From the IMG/VR virus record IMGVR_UViG_3300046820_001070, positions 1 to 49,761 of that record: DNA of 49,761 nucleotides. The stretch is one strand, 5' to 3'. The notes beneath the pieces were generated by a model, which had not been told where the DNA came from, did no database searches, and saw nothing but the letters and a program-made list of their open reading frames with translations. Of this stretch, positions 9,971 through 33,443 are shown in pieces. The first letter of the stretch is position 1; every line of letters begins with the position of its first letter. The stretch comes from a virus. The translations under genes were made by a program, and so were the position numbers.

Positions 9971-9995
9971 GTAGTAAAACTATAAACTTTAAGTA

Positions 9996-11207
9996 ATGTC
10001 TGTAAATACATATTGGTCAGGTGCAACGGCAGCAGAATTTTCATCTTCGGTAGTAACGGCAACCGCAACTCCATTTGGAATATATGATAATGATGTTGAT
10101 TTTAAAAATGACGCACCTAAAACTTCAGTTTGGGTAGCAAAAAGATTGGGATATCCCATTGTTAATATTGAATTAGATAATCAACAAATTTGGGCATGTT
10201 TTGAAGAATCGGTATCAGAATATTCTGCACAAGTTAACCAATTCAATCTTAGAAATAATTTAGATATCCTCAGAGGACAACCAAAAGGTAAAGTTGCAAA
10301 CTATTCACAAACGCTTGTAGATGGTTCATTTTTACCAACAACTGTTCGTATGTCTCAACAATATGGAACTTTGGCAGGTGTCGGTGGTTCTACTGCAATT
10401 AAAAAAGCATATGTTAATTTGACGGCATCGGTTCAAATATACGATTTAATAAATCAGGGAATTGATGTTAAAACCGGAAATACAATATCATCTTCATTAG
10501 ACTATGCAACATCAACAATTGATGTAACAAGAGTATATCACGAAGCAATACCCGCTATTACAAGATTCTTTGACCCGTATTCAGTTGGTGCACAGGGAAC
10601 TTTAAATTTAATTTCCGAATTGGGATTTGGTAACTATTCACCTGCAGCACAATTCTTAATGATGCCACTTTATGAAGATGTATTGAGAATGCAACAGATT
10701 GAATTCAATGACCACATCAGAAAATCGGCACATACATTTAATATCGTAGATAATAAATTGGAAATATTTCCAGTTCCAACAGACAGTACGTTTAAGAAGG
10801 TATATTTTGAATATATGAATAGAGATGAATTTGAACACGATTCTCAAACCGTTCAATCCGATTCACTTTCCGACTATTCCGACATTCCATACGATTTTAT
10901 TCAATATTCAAATATAAATGAAGTAGGTAAACAATGGATTAGAAAATACACCCTTGCACTTGCAAAAGAATTATTGGGTGCAATTAGAGAAAAATATAAT
11001 TCAATTCCAATTCCAGATGGTGAGGTGACTTTGGATGGTGGGGCATTGAGAGCAGAAGCACAAGTAGAGAAAGACGCACTTATTACGCAATTGAGGGAAA
11101 ACTTGGAAGAGATGAGTAGAATAAAGGTGATGGAAAATAAAGCACATGAATCAACTCACCAACAAGAAATGCTAAGAAAAGTTCCACTTAAAATATATGT
11201 AGGATAA
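9996..11207 (+). CDS. Neck protein (T4 gp13-like)
   Basis: A 403-residue protein that resembles the neck/head-completion proteins of marine T4-like phages: an N-terminal region with WVAKRLGYPIVNIEL followed by the helix WACFEESVSEYSAQVNQF, a long variable middle, and a C-terminal helical segment (KYTLALAKELLGAIREKYNS) ending in a charged coiled coil. In T4, gp13 and gp14 form the neck that closes the filled head and joins it to the tail. The next genes (gp14-like and gp15-like) support this. It is longer than T4 gp13 (309 residues). One base separates it from the next gene. Confidence 0.7.
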   Translation: MSVNTYWSGATAAEFSSSVVTATATPFGIYDNDVDFKNDAPKTSVWVAKRLGYPIVNIELDNQQIWACFEESVSEYSAQVNQFNLRNNLDILRGQPKGKVANYSQTLVDGSFLPTTVRMSQQYGTLAGVGGSTAIKKAYVNLTASVQIYDLINQGIDVKTGNTISSSLDYATSTIDVTRVYHEAIPAITRFFDPYSVGAQGTLNLISELGFGNYSPAAQFLMMPLYEDVLRMQQIEFNDHIRKSAHTFNIVDNKLEIFPVPTDSTFKKVYFEYMNRDEFEHDSQTVQSDSLSDYSDIPYDFIQYSNINEVGKQWIRKYTLALAKELLGAIREKYNSIPIPDGEVTLDGGALRAEAQVEKDALITQLRENLEEMSRIKVMENKAHESTHQQEMLRKVPLKIYVG

Positions 11208-25195: not shown

Positions 25196-26152
25196 ATGAG
25201 AAAAAAAAAGTTACTTTATGTGTGTCCACATCTTTCTACTGGTGGACAACCTCAATATACATACAAACAAATAAAACACTTTATCAATGATTTTGAAATA
25301 GAAGTTGTTGAAATAAATAATAGTGGTGGGGATACATATGTAGTTCAAAAAAATAGAATAAAATCAATAGTAAAGGTTTATACATTGGGAGATGATAAAT
25401 CGGAAATACTAAGTGTAATAAATCAAGCTAACCCTGACATCATACATTTTCAGGAAATACCAGAATTTCATTTAGCTCCTTTTATTTTAGACCAAATTTT
25501 TACAAAAAATAGAAATTACTTTATAGTAGTAACTACACATAGTTCATTTACAAATCCACATGAAATAATTTATCAACCCGATAGATATGTTTTGGTATCT
25601 GAATGGAGTAGGCAACAATTCATTGGTACTGGTGTTGAAACTATGTTATGGGAATATCCAATCGAAGAATATACATTTGATAAGGAAGTTGCACAAGTTG
25701 AATTAGAATTAGACCCAATTTGGAAGCATGTACTAAATGTAGGATTGTTTACACCGGGTAAAAATCAAAGTGAAGTATTTGCAATAGCAAGACAATTTGA
25801 AAAGTATAAAATTAAATTCCACTTTGTTGGTAACCAAGCTATAAATTTTGAAGATTATTGGAAACCATTAATGAATGATAAGCCTGAAAATTGTGTGATA
25901 TGGGGAGAACGTGATGATGTGGATACTTTCTACGTAGCATGTGATATGTTTTATTTTAGTTCTAAATTAGAATTAAATCCATTATCAATTAAAGAAGCAT
26001 TGAGTTATAAATTACCATCTATATTCAGGAAACTACACACTTATTTAAATACATATGATGATAATGATTTGGTAACTTATATTGATGATGATTTAAAATC
26101 AACTAAACAAATTATAATAGAAAAACTTAATCCTGAATTAAATGATATATGA
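25196..26152 (+). CDS. GT-B glycosyltransferase (family 4-like)
   Basis: A 318-residue glycosyltransferase. The N-terminus KKLLYVCPHLSTGGQPQYTY is the first Rossmann strand with the Gly-Gly loop of GT-B enzymes. The second half has VLNVGLFTPGKNQ (start of the donor domain), FHFVGNQ, and SSKLELNPLSIKEALSYKLP, the E-x7-E signature of retaining GT4-type transferases (both Glu present). It is shorter than typical GT4 (about 360-400 residues) because of a compact acceptor domain. It overlaps the next gene by 11 bases, so the two are an operon. Substrates cannot be read from sequence; fibre proteins or host glycans are candidates. Confidence 0.8.
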   Translation: MRKKKLLYVCPHLSTGGQPQYTYKQIKHFINDFEIEVVEINNSGGDTYVVQKNRIKSIVKVYTLGDDKSEILSVINQANPDIIHFQEIPEFHLAPFILDQIFTKNRNYFIVVTTHSSFTNPHEIIYQPDRYVLVSEWSRQQFIGTGVETMLWEYPIEEYTFDKEVAQVELELDPIWKHVLNVGLFTPGKNQSEVFAIARQFEKYKIKFHFVGNQAINFEDYWKPLMNDKPENCVIWGERDDVDTFYVACDMFYFSSKLELNPLSIKEALSYKLPSIFRKLHTYLNTYDDNDLVTYIDDDLKSTKQIIIEKLNPELNDI

Positions 26153-27272
26153 TAATTTAATAAAAAACAAAAATAACAAAATAAATATAGAAAACAAAGT
26201 TTATTATCACTTTGTCAATGGCCCTTTTGTAGAAATTAAAGGAAACAAAGAAGCTCAATATAGAGTTGAATTCATAGATACCGATACTGACAATATTGTT
26301 TATACAACAAATATTAAAAATAATTGTTGGTGTAAATGTAATAAAGAGTATTTTATTAATTGGAAAATCAAAATATATGAAAATGAAAACGTTTGGTTTG
26401 AACATTCATATAATGCGGAAAATAAAAAAGTCTATATTGCATTGGATTCTAAATCATTGGGTGACACTTTGGCTTGGTTTCCGTATTTAGAAGAATTTAG
26501 AAAAAAGCATAATTGTAAATTAATTGTATCAACTTTTATGAATGAATTATTTTTAGATGGTTATGCTAATATAGAATTTATAAAACCAGGTGATATTGTG
26601 TCCGATTTATATGCAATGTATTGTATAGGTGTATTTTACAATGATAATAGCTCTATTAATTTATTTAAAAATCCAACTGACCCAAAAAAGGTTACACTTC
26701 AAAAAATGTGTTCTGATATTTTAGGATTAGAATATATAGAAATACGTCCAAATATATACACATCTTATAAAAAACAAGTATGTATTGGTATTCATGGTAC
26801 CGCTCAATCTAAATTTTGGAATAACCCTAATGGCTGGCAAGATGTAGTAGATTGGTTGAATGGTAGAGGGTATAATGTAAAATTATTATCAAAAGAGGGT
26901 GATAACTATATGGGTAATAAACTTCCAGATGGTATAGTAAAACACCCAAATGGCCCTATTGAATTAGTTATGGATGAAATGTTAAAATCCAAAGCATTTA
27001 TTGGAATCGGTAGCGGGTTGAGTTGGTTAAGTTGGAGTTTAAATATCCCCACCATATTAATTAGTGGATTTTCATATGAATGGGCAGAAATGAAAGATTG
27101 TATTAGAATAACTGCACCCAATGAAGTATGTCAAGGATGTTTTAATAGATATAAATTGGATATTAATGATTGGAATTGGTGTCCGGAACACAAAGGAACT
27201 GAGCGTGAATTTGAATGTAGCAAACGTATCACATCAGAAATGGTAATAAAAGAATTGGAAAAGTTTTTATAA
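26142..27272 (+). CDS. Aah/TibC-type O-heptosyltransferase homologue
   Basis: A 376-residue protein matching the bacterial autotransporter heptosyltransferase family, which transfers heptose from ADP-heptose to serines of autotransporter passengers. Visible: an N-terminal beta domain (to about residue 95); SLGDTLAWFPYLEEFRKKH with the candidate catalytic Asp108; PLQK-like VTLQKMCSDILGLEY; GIHGTAQSKFWNNPNGWQDV with a conserved Lys224; FIGIGSGLSWLSWSL; and a C-terminal four-Cys motif (Cys330, Cys333, Cys347, Cys359; CQGCFN, then WNWCPEHKGTEREFEC), the iron-finger site of the family. All expected signature elements appear intact. It lies between a Thr/Ser-rich collagen-like fibre and a YadA-like fibre. 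Heptose itself is inferred from family; the sugar could differ. Confidence 0.87.
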   Translation: MIYDNLIKNKNNKINIENKVYYHFVNGPFVEIKGNKEAQYRVEFIDTDTDNIVYTTNIKNNCWCKCNKEYFINWKIKIYENENVWFEHSYNAENKKVYIALDSKSLGDTLAWFPYLEEFRKKHNCKLIVSTFMNELFLDGYANIEFIKPGDIVSDLYAMYCIGVFYNDNSSINLFKNPTDPKKVTLQKMCSDILGLEYIEIRPNIYTSYKKQVCIGIHGTAQSKFWNNPNGWQDVVDWLNGRGYNVKLLSKEGDNYMGNKLPDGIVKHPNGPIELVMDEMLKSKAFIGIGSGLSWLSWSLNIPTILISGFSYEWAEMKDCIRITAPNEVCQGCFNRYKLDINDWNWCPEHKGTEREFECSKRITSEMVIKELEKFL

Positions 27273-27293
27273 TTGTAAAAATCATTTATAAGT

Positions 27294-27303
27294 TATATTT
27301 ATA
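27294..27303 (+). promoter_or_regulatory. Promoter-like box TATATTTATA
   Basis: An exact copy of the recurrent box (followed by TAAAA), 16 bases before the ATG at 27320. Confidence 0.58.
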
Positions 27304-27319
27304 TAAAATAACATTATAA

Positions 27320-27739
27320 ATGGCACTACCATACGGAGAAATATCATTTAGAGATTTCAATTTAGATAGAAGTTTACCACCTTCACAAACAATTACCATG
27401 ACAAATGCAGCTGCAGCATATGGTGTTTCATATGGTGTAGACGGTTCAAATCCCATTTCAATGGATGAATTTTGGCAAGGACAAGTTATATTTAACACAT
27501 ATACTGGTTGTGGTAGAGGAAATACATTCGGTGAAGTTTGTGGTGATGCAACTATTGGCAATAGAACATTTTATTCAAACATCGGCCCCTTTGATTTTGC
27601 AGAAGGTGCATATGTTTATGTAGACCAATATCCCAATGTATTAATAGGATACGACTATGTATATATAAATGGTGCTACATGGAGAATTGATAATGCTCAA
27701 GGATATATAATAGAATATGCGGGAGATTTTCAATGTTAA
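27320..27739 (+). CDS. Small Gly/Tyr-rich virion-associated protein
   Basis: A 139-residue protein. It begins MALPYGEISFRDFNLDRSLP, with a later PISMDEFWQG; such starts are seen in small phage fibre-associated proteins, but I cannot name a family. The body is rich in Gly, Tyr and Asn with Cys at about positions 62, 72 and the last residue. Aromatic YVYVDQYPNVLIGYDYVYIN suggests exposed beta strands. It has its own promoter-like box and lies between the heptosyltransferase and the YadA-like fibre. A fibre tip, chaperone or cell-binding protein is possible. Confidence 0.62.
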   Translation: MALPYGEISFRDFNLDRSLPPSQTITMTNAAAAYGVSYGVDGSNPISMDEFWQGQVIFNTYTGCGRGNTFGEVCGDATIGNRTFYSNIGPFDFAEGAYVYVDQYPNVLIGYDYVYINGATWRIDNAQGYIIEYAGDFQC

Positions 27740-27779
27740 AATATAATTTTTAAAATTCATAACATTTACTAAACCTTTC

Positions 27780-27789
27780 TATATTTATA
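27780..27789 (+). promoter_or_regulatory. Promoter-like box TATATTTATA
   Basis: An exact copy of the recurrent box in the 99-base gap before the YadA-like fibre gene (ATG at 27839). A second AT-rich stretch (TATTATAAAATATTTTATAAA) follows it. Confidence 0.5.
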
Positions 27790-27838
27790 GTTGTATTATA
27801 AAATATTTTATAAACGTACTAAAAAAAAGGTAAACTAA

Positions 27839-30712
27839 ATGGGACTTAAATTTAGACGTGGGACAACCGCACAACAATCAGGTTCGTTAGCATTCGGAGA
27901 ACCATATGTGAACACCACATTGGGAACATTAGTAGTCGGCGGCCCCAACGGCGACATCGTATTAGGAGCTTCTGGAACAGGAAGCACAGGAAACTTTGGA
28001 GCAATTTCAGGTTCCGGTTTAGACATCACAGGAAATGCAAATATTGCGGGTAATTTAACTTTAGGTGGAAAATTAACAATCGGTGATAATACATCCGACA
28101 CTGTTAATGTAGTTGCATCTTTAAGTTCATCACTTATACCTTCAGTAACAAATGCATTTGATTTAGGTTCTGAAGATTATTTCTGGAGAGACCTTTACAT
28201 CTCAACTGGTTCAATTAAATTTGTTGGAGCAGCAGGAACGGTAGTAGGTACATTATCTAATGCAGCTAATGGGATGGTATTGGATTCAGGATTGATTGCA
28301 AATGGTAATAGTTCATTTGGAACATCATCTTTAGCAATAACATCTGTAACTGGTTCATTAAGAATCACTGGTTCATTAAGAAATGGTGGTGAAGATTTGG
28401 TAGCAACCGGTCAAATATCTCATGCCGAAGGACTTCGTGCTAGAGCAACTGGAGTTGCATCTCATGCCGAAGGACATAATACGCATGCACATGGAGAATA
28501 TTCACACGCAGAAGGAGATAGTACGAGTGCATCGGGTTCTTCATCTCACACTGAAGGTGGATTTACTAGAGCAACAGCAACTGCAGAATATGCACACGCC
28601 GAAGGATATGCTACATACGTTGAAGCTATAGCAGGACACGTTGAAGGACAATCTACGGTAGTATATGCAAATGCACGTGGCGGACACGCTGAAGGTAACC
28701 ACACTGATGTTTATGATGAATATGGACACGCTGAAGGTGAATTTACAATGACAAATGCAAGAGGTGCCCACTCTGAAGGTTGGTATTCTATGGCAACTGG
28801 TCAACACGCTCATGCTGAAGGTAGTAGAACAATTGCACAAGGAACAGGTTCACACGCCGAAGGTAGTGGTTCTTGGGCTGAAGCACATTATTCACATGCA
28901 TCTGGCATCGGAACAAAGGCATCGGCAGTTGGTCAATCGGTAGTAGGTAAATTTAACGTTGTTGATAATACAACATCTTTATTTGTAATAGGTAATGGTA
29001 CAAGTGATACTAATAGAAGTGATTTATTTTTAGCAGAGGCAGGTGGTATACAAATATCTGGGTCATTAACAATGAGTGGTTCGATTTTACCATCAGTATC
29101 TAATGCATTTGATTTGGGTAGTTCGACTAAATTTTGGAGAGATTTATTTATTTCAACCGGTTCAATTAAATTCGTTGGAGCAGCAGGAACGGTAGTAGGT
29201 ACATTAACTAATGTTGGTAATGGATTGAGTTTAGATAGTGGTATAATCGCAAATGGTAATAGTTCATTTGGTACATCATCTTTAGCAATAACATCTGTAA
29301 CCGGTTCATTGGCGGTTAATGGTAGAATAATCGCAACTTCTATTACTGGAGCAATTGCAGCAACAAATGGTGTAATTTCTGGTTCTTCTCAATTAACAAG
29401 CTCACTTGATGATAGATATTTAAATGTAGGAGGAGACTCAGTAGTAAGTGGTTCATCTCAAATAACATTGAGTTCAACAACCGGATTCTCAGATTATTCA
29501 ACATCAGTAGATAGTAGAATTACAACCGAAAAAGGTAGAGTAGACGCAATCTTATTAGCAGCAGACGCAGATAAGGATACATTTGCAGAAATCGTAACCT
29601 TAATTAATTCGGTAGATACTACAAACGATAATGCATTTGCATCATTCTATACTGCAAGTGTTGGTAGATTAAATAATTTAGAATCAACTTCTGCAAGTGT
29701 AAACATTTCGGTAAGTAATTTAAATACATTTAGTGGTTCAGCATTAACAAGATTATCGGCATTAGAAGTTGAAACGGCTAATTTGGAATCATTCACATCT
29801 TCAATCAACACAACTATTAAGAGTAAGTTGGATGCAGATGGTGTAATTAGTGGTTCTTCACAATTAACTACAACATTCGATGCTAGATACCTAAATACAG
29901 GTGGTGATTCAGTAGTTTCTGGTTCATCACAAATAGCACACGATTCAACAACTGGATATTCTGCAAACAGACATATCGACCACACCGCAGTATCAATTTC
30001 AGCAGGTAGTGGTTTAACAGGTGGTGGTGATATAAGTGCAACTAGAACACTTTCTATCGCATCTGGTGGTGTTACAAATGATATGTTAGCTGGTTCAATT
30101 GCAAATGCTAAATTAACTAACTCATCAGTAACTGTAACTGCAGGAACTGGTCTGAGTGGTGGTGGAGCAGTTGCTTTGGGAAGTTCAGTAACTTTAAGTA
30201 ACGCCGGTGTAACATCAAACGTTGCAGGTACGGGTGTAACAGTAAGTGGAGCAACCGGAGCAGTAACAATCTCAATCGGCCAGGCAGTAGCTACATCTAG
30301 TGATGTTAGATTTGCTTCGATTGGTGTTGGCATGGCAGCAAGTGGAACATCTGGTAGAATTGACGCAGCAAATGATGTTGTGGCATACTCTTCTTCAGAT
30401 AGAAACTTTAAAGAGAACATCACTCCAATCGAAAATCCAATTGAAAAAATCAAAAAGATTAGTGGTAACACTTATGATTGGAAAGCAGAATTAAAAGATG
30501 TACACGGATATGAAGGAAACGATGTGGGTGTAATCGCACAAGAAATTGAAGAAGTATTACCTCAAATCGTAACTACAAGAGATAATGGATATAAGGCGGT
30601 TAAATACGAAAAATTAGTAGCATTATTAATTGAAGGTATTAAAGAGCAACAAATCCAAATCGATAATTTAACTGCACAAGTAGAAGAATTAAAGAAACAA
30701 AAAGGTTTATAA
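27839..30712 (+). CDS. YadA-head-like fibre with S74 self-cleaving chaperone
   Basis: A 957-residue fibre. Residues 1-35 are an anchoring domain (LKFRRGTTAQQSGSLAFGE). Residues about 193-365 hold twelve repeats on the pattern SHAEGxxTxAxG, the beta-roll repeat of trimeric autotransporter (YadA/Hia) heads. This block is flanked by two near-identical segments of about 77 residues. Then come VSGSSQI/L modules and coiled-coil heptads, a Gly-rich stretch (SAGSGLTGGGDISATRTLSI), and a peptidase S74 chaperone from Ser853 (SDRNFKENI, then [17 protein letters not shown]) ending in a coiled coil. Cleavage before Ser853 is expected. Its resemblance to autotransporters is notable beside a TibC-type glycosyltransferase. 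The next gene starts four bases later. Confidence 0.9.
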   Translation: MGLKFRRGTTAQQSGSLAFGEPYVNTTLGTLVVGGPNGDIVLGASGTGSTGNFGAISGSGLDITGNANIAGNLTLGGKLTIGDNTSDTVNVVASLSSSLIPSVTNAFDLGSEDYFWRDLYISTGSIKFVGAAGTVVGTLSNAANGMVLDSGLIANGNSSFGTSSLAITSVTGSLRITGSLRNGGEDLVATGQISHAEGLRARATGVASHAEGHNTHAHGEYSHAEGDSTSASGSSSHTEGGFTRATATAEYAHAEGYATYVEAIAGHVEGQSTVVYANARGGHAEGNHTDVYDEYGHAEGEFTMTNARGAHSEGWYSMATGQHAHAEGSRTIAQGTGSHAEGSGSWAEAHYSHASGIGTKASAVGQSVVGKFNVVDNTTSLFVIGNGTSDTNRSDLFLAEAGGIQISGSLTMSGSILPSVSNAFDLGSSTKFWRDLFISTGSIKFVGAAGTVVGTLTNVGNGLSLDSGIIANGNSSFGTSSLAITSVTGSLAVNGRIIATSITGAIAATNGVISGSSQLTSSLDDRYLNVGGDSVVSGSSQITLSSTTGFSDYSTSVDSRITTEKGRVDAILLAADADKDTFAEIVTLINSVDTTNDNAFASFYTASVGRLNNLESTSASVNISVSNLNTFSGSALTRLSALEVETANLESFTSSINTTIKSKLDADGVISGSSQLTTTFDARYLNTGGDSVVSGSSQIAHDSTTGYSANRHIDHTAVSISAGSGLTGGGDISATRTLSIASGGVTNDMLAGSIANAKLTNSSVTVTAGTGLSGGGAVALGSSVTLSNAGVTSNVAGTGVTVSGATGAVTISIGQAVATSSDVRFASIGVGMAASGTSGRIDAANDVVAYSSSDRNFKENITPIENPIEKIKKISGNTYDWKAELKDVHGYEGNDVGVIAQEIEEVLPQIVTTRDNGYKAVKYEKLVALLIEGIKEQQIQIDNLTAQVEELKKQKGL
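28131..28360 (+). repeat. Duplicated segment, copy 1, flanking the YadA-like block
   Basis: Encodes IPSVTNAFDLGS, WRDLYISTGSIKFVGAAGTV and ends in FGTSSLAITSVTGSL. The DNA is close to identical to copy 2 about 950 bases downstream in the same gene. Confidence 0.88.
29082..29311 (+). repeat. Duplicated segment, copy 2, flanking the YadA-like block
   Basis: Encodes LPSVSNAFDLGS, WRDLFISTGSIKFVGAAGTV and FGTSSLAITSVTGSL. The stretch GTTGGAGCAGCAGGAACGGT is identical in both copies. Confidence 0.88.
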
Positions 30713-30715
30713 TTA

Positions 30716-31720
30716 ATGTATGATGTATACTACACCACCGCTGGAGGACCCTGGTTCAACAGCGGTGCTGATATATGGGTAACTGATTGGATAAAAGAAG
30801 TGGCTCCTAACTTAGAAGTTAAGCCACTTCTTCTTTTCCATAGGAAGAAGCCAGATAATTACGAAGAATTTCCAATTGATATTGACCACATTTGGGAAAC
30901 AAATGAGTTAGTTATTGATGAAATTTTAAAAGGTGCAAGAAAAATTCATATATTACATGGTCATTATACTCCAACAACTGCCATACATAATAATTTAGAT
31001 AAAATCGATTCAATCGTATTTCATAATTTGACAAAGGTATCAATGTTGTCACAGATGGGTAAAGATGAATACCTTCATTGGTATGGTAATTGGGAATATG
31101 AAAATCAGTTAATAAATAAAATTAAAAATAAAGTTTGGGTAGGGTTGTATCATTTTCCATATGAAACAGAAAATTTACACCATATTCCAAATTATTATGA
31201 ATTTAAAAATAATAAAGAACTTTCTAACTCAACGGAGATAGGATATGCAGCAAGAGTAGAAGGTAGAAAGAATGTTGAATATATTGATGGAATGGGTGGA
31301 TACATTTTCACAAATTCAGAAACATTCAACAAATATTATAAAAAGAAATATGGATACAAATTTGAAAAATCAAAAGTTTACAAATTTGATTACAAACATA
31401 AAGAAAAGTTCTACGGACTTGATTGGGGAATATCTCATTCTTGCTTTGAATTTGAACCATTTGGATACGGAATTTTTGAAGCAGTGGATTGGGGTAAACT
31501 TCCAATACTACATGAAAGATGGCACGTACCACTTGATTATAAATACAAAGCGACTGACAAGGAAACATTTAAACAAGCCTACGAAACGATTTGTAACGAT
31601 GATTATGAAACCCGTAAAACGGAGTTTCAAAAACTGAAAGATTGGATGATACAATATTTTGGAAACAAAGATGTGTGGAAACAAAAACTTTTAGATATTT
31701 ATAGGGAGAATAATATATAA
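30716..31720 (+). CDS. Glycosyltransferase, GT4-like
   Basis: A 334-residue GT-B-type transferase. The N-terminus YDVYYTTAGGPWFNSGADIW has the Gly-rich first loop. The donor domain shows EIGYAARVEGRKNVEYIDG and the clear E-x7-E motif in FEFEPFGYGIFEAVDWGKLPI (Glu in EPFG and FEA), typical of retaining GT4 enzymes. It starts four bases after the YadA-like fibre stop, so fibre and transferase are co-transcribed, which argues that the fibre (or its glycan) is the substrate. Together with the two transferases upstream it could add further sugars to the first one. A promoter-like box lies inside its 3' end. Confidence 0.78.
   Translation: MYDVYYTTAGGPWFNSGADIWVTDWIKEVAPNLEVKPLLLFHRKKPDNYEEFPIDIDHIWETNELVIDEILKGARKIHILHGHYTPTTAIHNNLDKIDSIVFHNLTKVSMLSQMGKDEYLHWYGNWEYENQLINKIKNKVWVGLYHFPYETENLHHIPNYYEFKNNKELSNSTEIGYAARVEGRKNVEYIDGMGGYIFTNSETFNKYYKKKYGYKFEKSKVYKFDYKHKEKFYGLDWGISHSCFEFEPFGYGIFEAVDWGKLPILHERWHVPLDYKYKATDKETFKQAYETICNDDYETRKTEFQKLKDWMIQYFGNKDVWKQKLLDIYRENNI
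31694..31703 (+). promoter_or_regulatory. Promoter-like box GATATTTATA
   Basis: A copy of the recurrent box inside the 3' end of the transferase gene, 21 bases before the ATG at 31725. It also encodes part of the protein (Asp-Ile-Tyr), so this copy is less certain. Confidence 0.4.
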
Positions 31721-31724
31721 AAAT

Positions 31725-33443
31725 ATGCCAAGGACAAACTTATCATTAGGAAATTTATTTAGAGCCGTTAGTGGTTCTGCAAGAAGTGGACAAGTATCAT
31801 TAGGTGGACTATCAGGAACTGCTACAAATAGTTCTATGATAGGATTTGCAACCGATTCGATTACTGTAACACCTCCTACATTTACATATATAGTAGAAAG
31901 TACAACTGAGAATGCAAATTTTACGTTTGCATCTACGGGTTCTTTGTTTTATTCAAAAGTACAACAACAATATAATAACTATACTTGTTCTTTTAATAAT
32001 TCAAATTTTTCAACAGGTAGTAGAACTGTATTAAATGGCCCAACAATATTTCCAATAACTCCGGCAGCAGTAGGAACGACTACATATTCGGAAGCATCGG
32101 CTACTTTAACTATGGCATATGCTGATGGATATAATCTAAACGCTACTAACTATGGTTCGGCAACAACAAAAGTATTATACGCAGTAGATGTTTACAATAC
32201 TATTAACGAACCTGATTTTTGTTTATTATTCGGTACACAAATTGAATTGGCAAATGGTACAATGGTAAATGTTGAAGATTTGAATGTTGGTGACCAAATT
32301 AAATCTTGGGTACCTGCAGGACTACCGGATGAAACACAAGACCCGGAAAGTGATGAAGTTGAATGGAGATTTTATCATTCGGAAGTATTATCAGGTTCAG
32401 CACAAATTGTAACTGTTAGTGATTTGACTTTTAATTTCGCAGAAGGATATTTCTCACTTAATAATGGTCTAATTAAAGCAACCGAAACTCACCCATTATA
32501 TGTTTGGGATAATGAGATTGGAAAATATAAATTCAAAAATGTAGGTGATATATTGCCTGGAGATAGATTGGTAATGCAAGATGAAACCGAAGTTGAAGTT
32601 GTTGATATAGAAATAGTAAGAGAAGATGTTGAAATTGTAACTGTAAATGTGGAAAATGCCGATGTGTATATTTCAAATGGTTTAATTTCTCACAACAAAG
32701 GAACAACAACACAACCAGCAATACCTGCAAGTGGTTTAAGAATGTATTTAGACCCATCTAAAGCATTGTCAACTGGTGGAACAGATACTGCGGATTGGTT
32801 AGATTTAAGTGGATACAATACAGGTGTTAGACCTGCAGGTGTTTCAAATGCAGCGGGAATAAGTGGTGGTAATCCATCATATAATGCGGGAGCAAGTAGA
32901 AAAGAAAAGTATTGGTCATTATCATCAAATAAGTTTTGGTATAAAGATGGAACGACTAACATAAATGGTGGATATACACAATTCAATACATCGGCATATT
33001 CGGTTGTAGCTTGGGTTAGATTTACATCACATCCTGCAAATGGATATTATCAAATTTTTGGTAAACAAAATAGTGGTGGAACAAGAGAAATTGCATTGTA
33101 TTTAAATTCAAATGGTAGTGGTACTTATTTCATACATGATGGAACATCTGTACAATTTAATAGTAATACATTTACACTATCTACAAACGTTTGGTATATG
33201 ATTTCTTATACTGCAGCATTGAATGGTACAAACGTTGCTTATATGGATTCTACATCAAGAGGAACGGTATCAAATGGTTCAAAAGATTACACAACATCTG
33301 CTTTAATTCAAGTTGGTGGTGGGTATGGTGATAATAACTATTATTTCAATGGACAATTAGGACCTGTATTATTCTATAACACACAATTAAATTCGACAAA
33401 CATAACAAATATATACAACTATTTCTCACCAACCTACAAATAA
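31725..33443 (+). CDS. Adhesin with Hint (intein-like) domain before a LamG lectin
   Basis: A 572-residue protein in three parts. Residues 1-165: Ser/Thr-rich N-terminal virion-anchoring region. Residues 166-324: a Hint domain starting at Cys166 (CLLFGTQIELANGTMVNVED), with LNVGDQIKSW, the block-B TETHPLY (Thr253, His256), ILPGDRLV, and the end VYISNGLISHN (His323, Asn324). The next residue is Lys325, not Cys/Ser/Thr, so normal splicing is not expected; N/S-acyl shift at Cys166 and Asn cyclisation at 324 remain possible, as in bacterial intein-like domains. Residues 338-572: a LamG lectin (SGLRMYL, WLDLSGYN, LGPVLFYNTQLNSTNITNIY) like the stand-alone 13602 adhesin. Cleavage at Asn324 would free a 248-residue lectin. 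Confidence 0.85.
   Translation: MPRTNLSLGNLFRAVSGSARSGQVSLGGLSGTATNSSMIGFATDSITVTPPTFTYIVESTTENANFTFASTGSLFYSKVQQQYNNYTCSFNNSNFSTGSRTVLNGPTIFPITPAAVGTTTYSEASATLTMAYADGYNLNATNYGSATTKVLYAVDVYNTINEPDFCLLFGTQIELANGTMVNVEDLNVGDQIKSWVPAGLPDETQDPESDEVEWRFYHSEVLSGSAQIVTVSDLTFNFAEGYFSLNNGLIKATETHPLYVWDNEIGKYKFKNVGDILPGDRLVMQDETEVEVVDIEIVREDVEIVTVNVENADVYISNGLISHNKGTTTQPAIPASGLRMYLDPSKALSTGGTDTADWLDLSGYNTGVRPAGVSNAAGISGGNPSYNAGASRKEKYWSLSSNKFWYKDGTTNINGGYTQFNTSAYSVVAWVRFTSHPANGYYQIFGKQNSGGTREIALYLNSNGSGTYFIHDGTSVQFNSNTFTLSTNVWYMISYTAALNGTNVAYMDSTSRGTVSNGSKDYTTSALIQVGGGYGDNNYYFNGQLGPVLFYNTQLNSTNITNIYNYFSPTYK
32220..32696 (+). other. Hint / bacterial-intein-like domain coding segment
   Basis: Encodes residues 166-324: Cys at position 1, TxxH block B, and a C-terminal His-Asn. 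No homing endonuclease insertion is present. Its length of 159 residues is typical of mini-intein-like domains. Confidence 0.85.

Follow-up and report, generated by a model that had tools for sequence, protein, structure and literature searches.

What do glycosyltransferases encoded among the fibre genes of a phage modify, the surface of the host or the fibres of the phage itself? The question is raised by a viral record in IMG/VR (IMGVR_UViG_3300046820_001070), whose 49,761 bp are the window analysed here and which carries three transferase open reading frames (ORFs), at 25196, 26142 and 30716, all present where a previous sequence-only reading had placed them. That reading proposed a single pathway, in which a TibC-like enzyme attaches a first sugar to the fibres and the two other enzymes extend it. 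We consider it probable instead that the first two genes, encoding a GT4-family enzyme (GT4a) and a TibC-type enzyme, form a fibre-modification module, in which the latter would glycosylate the Gly-Thr-Ser (GTS) shaft of the collagen-like fibre encoded upstream, and that the third (GT3) is separate. Fibre glycosylation, as predicted from the genomes compared below, is well supported, with the GTS shaft as its likely acceptor.

The protein encoded at 26142 passes the cut-off of the protein O-heptosyltransferase family TIGR04414 of NCBIfam (hepto_Aah_TibC; 290.4 bits against 200) and that of the N-terminal TibC domain PF21129 (33.2 bits against 27), and it aligns with crystallised TibC (PDB 4rap) across residues 19–368 (E 1.4e-52). 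The GT9 core PF01075 stays under its cut-off (16.7 bits against 22), which the relatives L041 and L045 pass. Work on TibC names Asp110 as the candidate base and assigns the binding of adenosine diphosphate (ADP)-heptose to Thr226, Lys230, Arg286 and Trp305, and that of an iron to four cysteines (PMC4358343). By alignment, D108, T220, K224 and W295 of the window protein correspond to Asp110, Thr226, Lys230 and Trp305 and are all kept, as is the four-cysteine iron finger (C330, C333, C347, C359); none of the 109 aligned rows (80 bacterial-genome, 29 viral) departs from Asp110, Lys230, Trp305 or the four cysteines. By sequence the enzyme falls in the TibC/Aah family, whose members are known to put sugars on adhesins of gut bacteria and whose other hallmarks are heptosyl transfer and a dodecameric form. 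Its neighbour is a collagen-like fibre with a Peptidase_S74 (S74) domain, with no autotransporter substrate alongside. The other nearby fibre, with its HAEG or YadA-like repeats, is not of the strand-loop-strand repeat type that the family name of TIGR04414 refers to, which makes the GTS fibre the likelier target.

The GTS fibre has a collagen part of 154 G-x-y triplets, which include 80 GTS and contain 187 Ser/Thr in all, and a C-terminal S74 chaperone domain found by Pfam. Because a GTSG-rich ORF also adjoins TibC in loci found without any repeat bait (Microcystis phage Mel-JY01, LR756501, L037/L041 and L043), virus contigs were scanned for DNA coding three GTS-like triplets in a row, with three G-[A/T]-Q triplets as the control. 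Neither pattern scan is a census, and all pairing counts are among the matches listed. Loci with at least 10 repeats were kept and their whole contigs searched with a 12-row TibC profile: 92 loci with at least 10 GTSG among 120 stretches gave 91 contigs, all searched, and 105 of 119 control loci qualified, of which 100 were searched (L458–L462 being left out). TibC was matched in 30/91 GTS contigs (16/49 and 14/42 in two batches) against 2/100 contigs with Gly-Ala/Thr-Gln collagen (1/50 and 1/50; Fisher p 2.2e-9), and among contigs of at least 50 kb, with second-batch counts read off the result tables, in 20/28 against 1/24 (p 4.8e-7). For 12 of the 16 first-batch cases, the stretch around TibC (up to ~10 kb either way) included a GTS gene; the 12 contigs above 60 kb, itself a rough choice, gave 9 co-located cases where a rough model, with genes placed evenly and a span of 6 kb plus 10 kb to either side, expected 3.2 (p 5e-4).

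The Pfam family PF00534 was found in 20/49 GTS contigs and 4/50 controls, and among the GTS contigs it occurred in 15 of the 16 TibC-positive but only 5 of the 33 TibC-negative ones. The GT4 family thus follows TibC, and the pairing is not accounted for by transferases at large. The TibC proteins of the 16 first-batch contigs are 30–53% identical to that of the window or of locus L036. Taken together, these sequence comparisons suggest that the TibC enzyme type and GTS collagen repeats belong together. The earlier proposal that a TibC-type O-glycosyltransferase is paired with a Ser/Thr-rich fibre is supported, since divergent phages show this pairing again and the control repeat type hardly ever does; the analogy with YadA is weak.

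A TibC tree, quickly made, with several long branches and to be taken only as a guide, was drawn from 80 bacterial-genome loci (the best 80 of 234) and the 29 viral rows, of which 16 had been picked by GTS, 1 by the control repeat and 12 by neither. All 23 GTS-labelled rows fall in one clade of 37 (Shimodaira–Hasegawa-like approximate likelihood ratio test, 100), and the label, which uses frames of at least 120 amino acids and so passes over the small repeat-bearing ORFs in L500 and L513, needs 12 changes on the tree compared to a mean of 21 when shuffled. Among the 12 viral rows picked by neither repeat, 6 had a GTS neighbour (the window, L032, L037, L043, Mel-JY01/L045 and LR756501/L210). 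When all 80 genome rows were recounted by the longest G-[TSA]-[TSAN] run in stop-to-stop frames of at least 60 amino acids, a run of at least 5 occurred in 6/8 rows of the GTS clade and 1/72 outside it (p 6.4e-7), of at least 6 in 5/8 and 0/72, and of at least 8 in 3/8 and 0/72. By the same measure the run of the window is 4, under the threshold of 5, and those of L002, L013, L029, L033, L038 and L211 are 0–2; the link between TibC and GTS repeats is not universal.

Three bacterial loci carry TibC together with a small repeat protein: L504 in a Methylococcaceae metagenome-assembled genome (MAG), L513 in an Arenicellales MAG and L500, in convergent order, in a Polaromonas MAG. As judged by eye, these small proteins have GTS/GTT/GTA repeats and begin like a secreted protein with a signal sequence or like a lipoprotein, and the genes around L504 and L500 seem to be chromosomal. 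L506 is phage-like (it has a sheath gene) and L502 carries the GT4. In the other clade, 8 of nine chosen loci that were printed have a large ORF (871–2613 amino acids) directly downstream, as expected of autotransporters.

GT4a belongs with the TibC-type enzyme. It passes the cut-off of Pfam Glycos_transf_1 (29.1 bits against 26.4), and its ORF overlaps that of TibC by 11 bp. When loci were found by TibC search alone, 33 of the 42 foreign ones had GT4a as the gene immediately upstream of TibC, the remainder being 2 with GT4a one gene away, 3 that begin at TibC, 1 with only a 295-amino-acid upstream fragment and 3 without GT4a; over all distinct TibC it lay directly upstream in 65/67, a partly circular count since 76 loci were taken from the GT4a search. 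The closest kin of GT4a (84%) and of TibC (74%) are in phages whose flanks differ from those of the window, and the two genes have a guanine-plus-cytosine content of 0.28 against 0.33 for the window, which suggests that they were acquired. They are an exchangeable pair that travels together, and GT3 is not part of it.

In many loci TibC is followed by genes that resemble parts of the heptose enzyme HldE. In L036, which belongs to a large-phage group (two contigs, 266 and 274 kb), the order is a GT4-methyltransferase-GT25-like fusion, TibC, a nucleotidylyltransferase like the HldE C-domain (HldE2-like) and a kinase like the HldE N-domain; GT4a is fused to methyltransferase and GT25-like parts in this and size-alike loci, the fusion domains having been read in L036. 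Of the 69 distinct TibC genes followed by at least 1.5 kb of sequence, 36 have the HldE2-like gene next and 32 have the kinase no more than three genes away. The nucleotidylyltransferase resembles heptose-phosphate adenylyltransferases and cytidylyltransferases alike, and ends in an STS/STT stretch in eight printed sequences. Related enzymes make cytidine diphosphate- or uridine diphosphate-heptose. Across 18 records, TIGR02199 was matched in 7, never above its cut-off, GmhA in 2 (LR756504 and the contig of L112) and the Histidinol-ppas model, a stand-in for GmhB, in 0.

Several observations weigh against a TibC-type enzyme acting on GTS collagen. No TibC match was found in 61 of the 91 GTS contigs, many of them fragments, and the counted contigs are partly related to one another, so that shared ancestry inflates the pairing statistics. 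A GTS neighbour is missing from the remaining 6 of those 12 viral rows that were picked by neither repeat, and in the large-phage group the neighbours that were read are S74-ended or Thr-rich proteins. The published TibC acceptors sit on a beta-helical autotransporter, not on collagen (PMC4358343); transfer to a collagen strand would be new. The models for HldE- and GmhA-type sugar supply (TIGR02199, TIGR00441 and TIGR01656) gave no match, and hence no HldE-type gene, in an incomplete contig of 101,470 bp (the twin), which is identical to the window across the 17 kb compared. Finally, Arg286 of TibC is replaced by Val276 in the window protein, and for this reason, the residue being conserved in the family, we call the enzyme TibC-like and of a divergent clade. 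Arg286 contacts N1 of the adenine (PMC4358343) and is kept in 7/37 rows of the GTS clade compared to 72/72 in the other, and enzymes of the GTS clade may therefore use a donor nucleotide other than an adenine-based one. The suggestion that ADP-heptose is the donor is weakened accordingly, and the sugar donor may be a heptose or a related nucleoside diphosphate (NDP)-sugar.

With these points counted, we lean slightly towards a broader proposal: a distinct TibC-type clade would be specialised for GTS collagen-like repeats, with which large phages would make glycosylated collagen fibres, in part with HldE-type genes of their own and probably with a changed donor nucleotide, and which some bacteria would use on small exported GTS-type repeat proteins.

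One alternative is that the transferases change glycans of the host surface (O-chains or the like), for instance so that competing phages are kept out, their placement being explained by a hypervariable island. In pelagimyophages, transferases likewise lie inside a fibre hypervariable region and are read as modifying host lipopolysaccharide (LPS), with GT8 the most represented and rfaE noted, and TibC is not mentioned in the part of that text available (PMC7029224); the top NCBIfam matches of GT4a are moreover lipid glycosyltransferases, far below their cut-offs. Against this stand the passing of a protein O-heptosyltransferase cut-off by the enzyme at 26142, the pairing of TibC with one collagen repeat type and hardly with the control type, the rarity of PF00534 in TibC-negative GTS contigs, and the bacterial units with a small repeat protein. 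We regard host modification as unlikely overall; GT4a and GT3 may act in this way, but such an action would account for neither the specificity for one repeat type nor the two-gene units of bacteria.

It could also be that TibC and GTS collagen occur together simply because the phages are related large aquatic ones, with no link of enzyme and substrate. The clustering of the GTS label on the TibC tree and the non-independence of the contigs would be expected under this explanation. However, the TibC proteins are divergent and fall in several sub-clades with differing gene order and strand, and three bacterial cases lie outside phages; the diversity of TibC in GTS contigs and the bacterial cases argue that shared ancestry is not the whole cause of the pairing. 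The repeat type also varies inside the window's own phage group: where collagen is in view in relatives, it has GxQ repeats in 5/5 (two with identical counts), and the TibC profile found no match in the contigs of these five. Mere co-occurrence is, we think, quite unlikely.

GT3 is better understood as a partner of a different fibre than as part of the TibC-type module. Searches of Pfam, PHROG, NCBIfam and PDB with its sequence gave no useful match, but an AlphaFold2 model from 55 relatives (predicted local distance difference test, pLDDT, 90.6), which replaced an earlier model set aside (27 near-identical rows, pLDDT 49), has a full-length GT-B/GT4 fold, with a VIA-align Z of up to 24.5 over 322 aligned residues (root-mean-square deviation 3.5) and a Foldseek E of 8e-10. 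The alignment contains an EPFG motif, with R180 and K185 invariant in the 55 rows, which we take to be typical of GT4, and 6/55 relatives weakly match Glycos_transf_1 (best E 0.0011). We call GT3 GT4-like by fold and motif only.

The gene starts 3 bases past the stop of the S74 fibre gene (30712). A scan gave 221 relatives, of which the best 80 were kept, one being the twin and the other 79 being 81–88% identical. In all 79 a LamG relative follows GT3, and upstream stands a relative of the S74 fibre in 70, another fibre in 2 and the contig edge in 7. Neither GT4a nor TibC is in view at any of the 79, and whole contigs of 50 of them gave no TibC match, although an empty answer, as from fragments, proves little. 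In relatives GT3 lies between the S74 fibre and the LamG gene; the GT4a-TibC pair recurs elsewhere and is absent from view in close relatives. Of 20 more distant GT3 loci that were drawn, 11 directly follow a Ser/Thr-rich or fibre-like ORF. Because GT3 is kept without the pair in view, we take it as a separate partner, likely coupled to the S74 fibre directly upstream, and in those relatives it does not depend on a sugar attached by TibC. A single pathway of all three enzymes, which their position in one run on one strand and their identity as transferases by family or fold would favour, is very unlikely, and a three-enzyme cassette is rejected, since GT3 persists in those 79 relatives.

The S74 fibre itself had been described as YadA-head-like with autotransporter-like repeats. 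HAEG repeats are present and Mtd_N matches just below its cut-off (2.9e-5), but no Pfam YadA-head model reached E 1, and YadA is a different class of autotransporter. The LamG part of the LamG-Hint adhesin proposed after GT3 was recovered (4e-12), the Hint part only as a weak match (0.022).

A mechanism can be proposed in which the TibC-type enzyme is made alongside the virion proteins in the infected cell, a timing that we infer, as we do which residues are modified, with which sugar and in what sequence of reactions, and that virions bear a glycan at all. An activated sugar, heptose or a related NDP-sugar, would be put on Ser/Thr of the GTS shaft before or during fibre assembly, perhaps before the collagen trimerises, and GT4a would probably lengthen it. 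GT3 would act separately, on the S74 fibre. Host range, stability or recognition of the phage may be altered as a result, as the earlier reading proposed.

Compared with the heptosyltransferases of TibC/Aah autotransporters, the window enzyme shares the family cut-off, the N-terminal domain, the catalytic Asp, the Thr/Lys/Trp contacts and the iron finger, but differs in its GTS collagen fibre neighbour, the replaced Arg286, its GT4 partner and its separate clade. BclA of Bacillus spores is a glycosylated collagen-like protein in which threonine-rich collagen repeats are the sugar acceptors, thus the same type of repeat acceptor, but it uses other enzymes in a cellular setting. Among phages, mycobacteriophage transferases are held to modify virion proteins (Freeman et al. 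2023, as cited in PMC12619734), there the C-termini of capsid and tail-tube proteins as opposed to a collagen-like fibre with a TibC-type enzyme. Moraphages are large aquatic phages that, like the phage of the window, have several transferases (four core putative ones), and virion glycosylation has been raised as a possibility for them (PMC12619734); the main text of that paper contains none of the terms TibC, heptos- or collagen.

It is already known that phages carry transferases in their fibre regions and that phage virions can be glycosylated (PMC7029224; PMC12619734). In the open-access literature searched we found no report of TibC-type enzymes in phages, of their pairing with GTS collagen or of GTS collagen glycosylation. 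If correct, our reading would provide a named enzyme-substrate pair for phage fibre glycosylation, with GTS collagen as a simple sequence rule to predict carriers, would extend the TibC family beyond autotransporters to proteins of collagen type, would offer minimal two-gene systems that could be tested in E. coli, and would be a concrete alternative to the host-LPS reading of transferases in phage fibre islands.

Table 1. Genes of the fibre and transferase region, with positions in the window.
Feature	Position	Strand	Matches and remarks
Collagen-like fibre, 976 aa	22239..25169	+	Pfam Collagen 2.7e-60, Peptidase_S74 9.3e-15; proposed acceptor of the TibC-type enzyme
GT4 glycosyltransferase (GT4a), 318 aa	25196..26152	+	Pfam Glycos_transf_1 8.5e-7; TibC partner
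TibC/Aah-family O-glycosyltransferase, 376 aa	26142..27272	+	TIGR04414 290 bits; PDB 4rap; TibC_1st 5.5e-8
139-aa protein, role unassigned	27320..27739	+	Downstream edge of variable slot
S74 fibre, 957 aa, HAEG repeats, Mtd-like N-terminus	27839..30712	+	Peptidase_S74 3e-15
GT3, GT-B/GT4-fold glycosyltransferase, 334 aa	30716..31720	+	AlphaFold2 model, fold comparison, motifs
LamG protein, weak Hint-like match	31725..33443	+	Laminin_G_3 4.1e-12, Hint_2 0.022

The window (Table 1) is assigned to a T4-like phage, of lake type, by matches of its major capsid protein and sheath, its tail-tube label resting on gene position only. Its capsid protein is best matched, at ~54% each, by those of Flavobacterium phage immuto, Microcystis phage Mel-JY01 and one uncultured phage. 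The 139-amino-acid protein has no Pfam or PHROG match, and relatives at 38% occupy the same place in L123 and L125. Where the window has the pair, flanked by the collagen and S74 fibre genes, relatives have 2-oxoglutarate (2OG)-Fe(II) oxygenases, FkbM methyltransferase with radical S-adenosylmethionine (SAM) genes, and tetratricopeptide repeat (TPR) proteins; tandem oxygenases, FkbM/radical SAM fusions and TPR proteins stand beside the collagen fibre in L075:1960-5448, L084, L124, L125 and L118, where a collagen hydroxylation module is conceivable.

Other proteins near the pair are varied. By eye, the large proteins upstream of it have S74-like ends in L032, L141 and L148, and that of L033 contains a Hint-like stretch. 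Long threonine tracts (TTTTTTEAP) of mucin-like look occur near the TibC cassette in L036:1996-3444, L197 and L002, the L036 protein standing beside a SPASM radical SAM gene. The L112 contig, from a relative of the window's phage (70 kb; GT3 85%), has HldE2-like and GmhA-like genes close together (G011:8642-9016 and 9984-10442) and gave no TibC match. A CTP_transf match at position 59070 of the twin was not counted, as it is part of a large protein whose kind also occurs in other phages of the set. A large protein with an N-terminal nucleotidylyltransferase domain is encoded in L036:10695-13643, L050 and L045:11243-13162, where in both L036 and Mel-JY01 its gene precedes that of the terminase; the twin has one as well, and a protein of immuto is annotated as NadR.

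Near an intact TibC gene, L492 has another copy interrupted by two stop codons (G031:C1:17439-18635), which suggests turnover of TibC genes. In Mel-JY01 (PP395634.1) an open frame of 1016 amino acids at the record edge (L045:2-3052) contains 63 GTSG repeats and is not annotated as such. For this stretch the record gives an antisense coding sequence (739-2298), and it names the GT4-TibC fusion of this phage methyltransferase FkbM.

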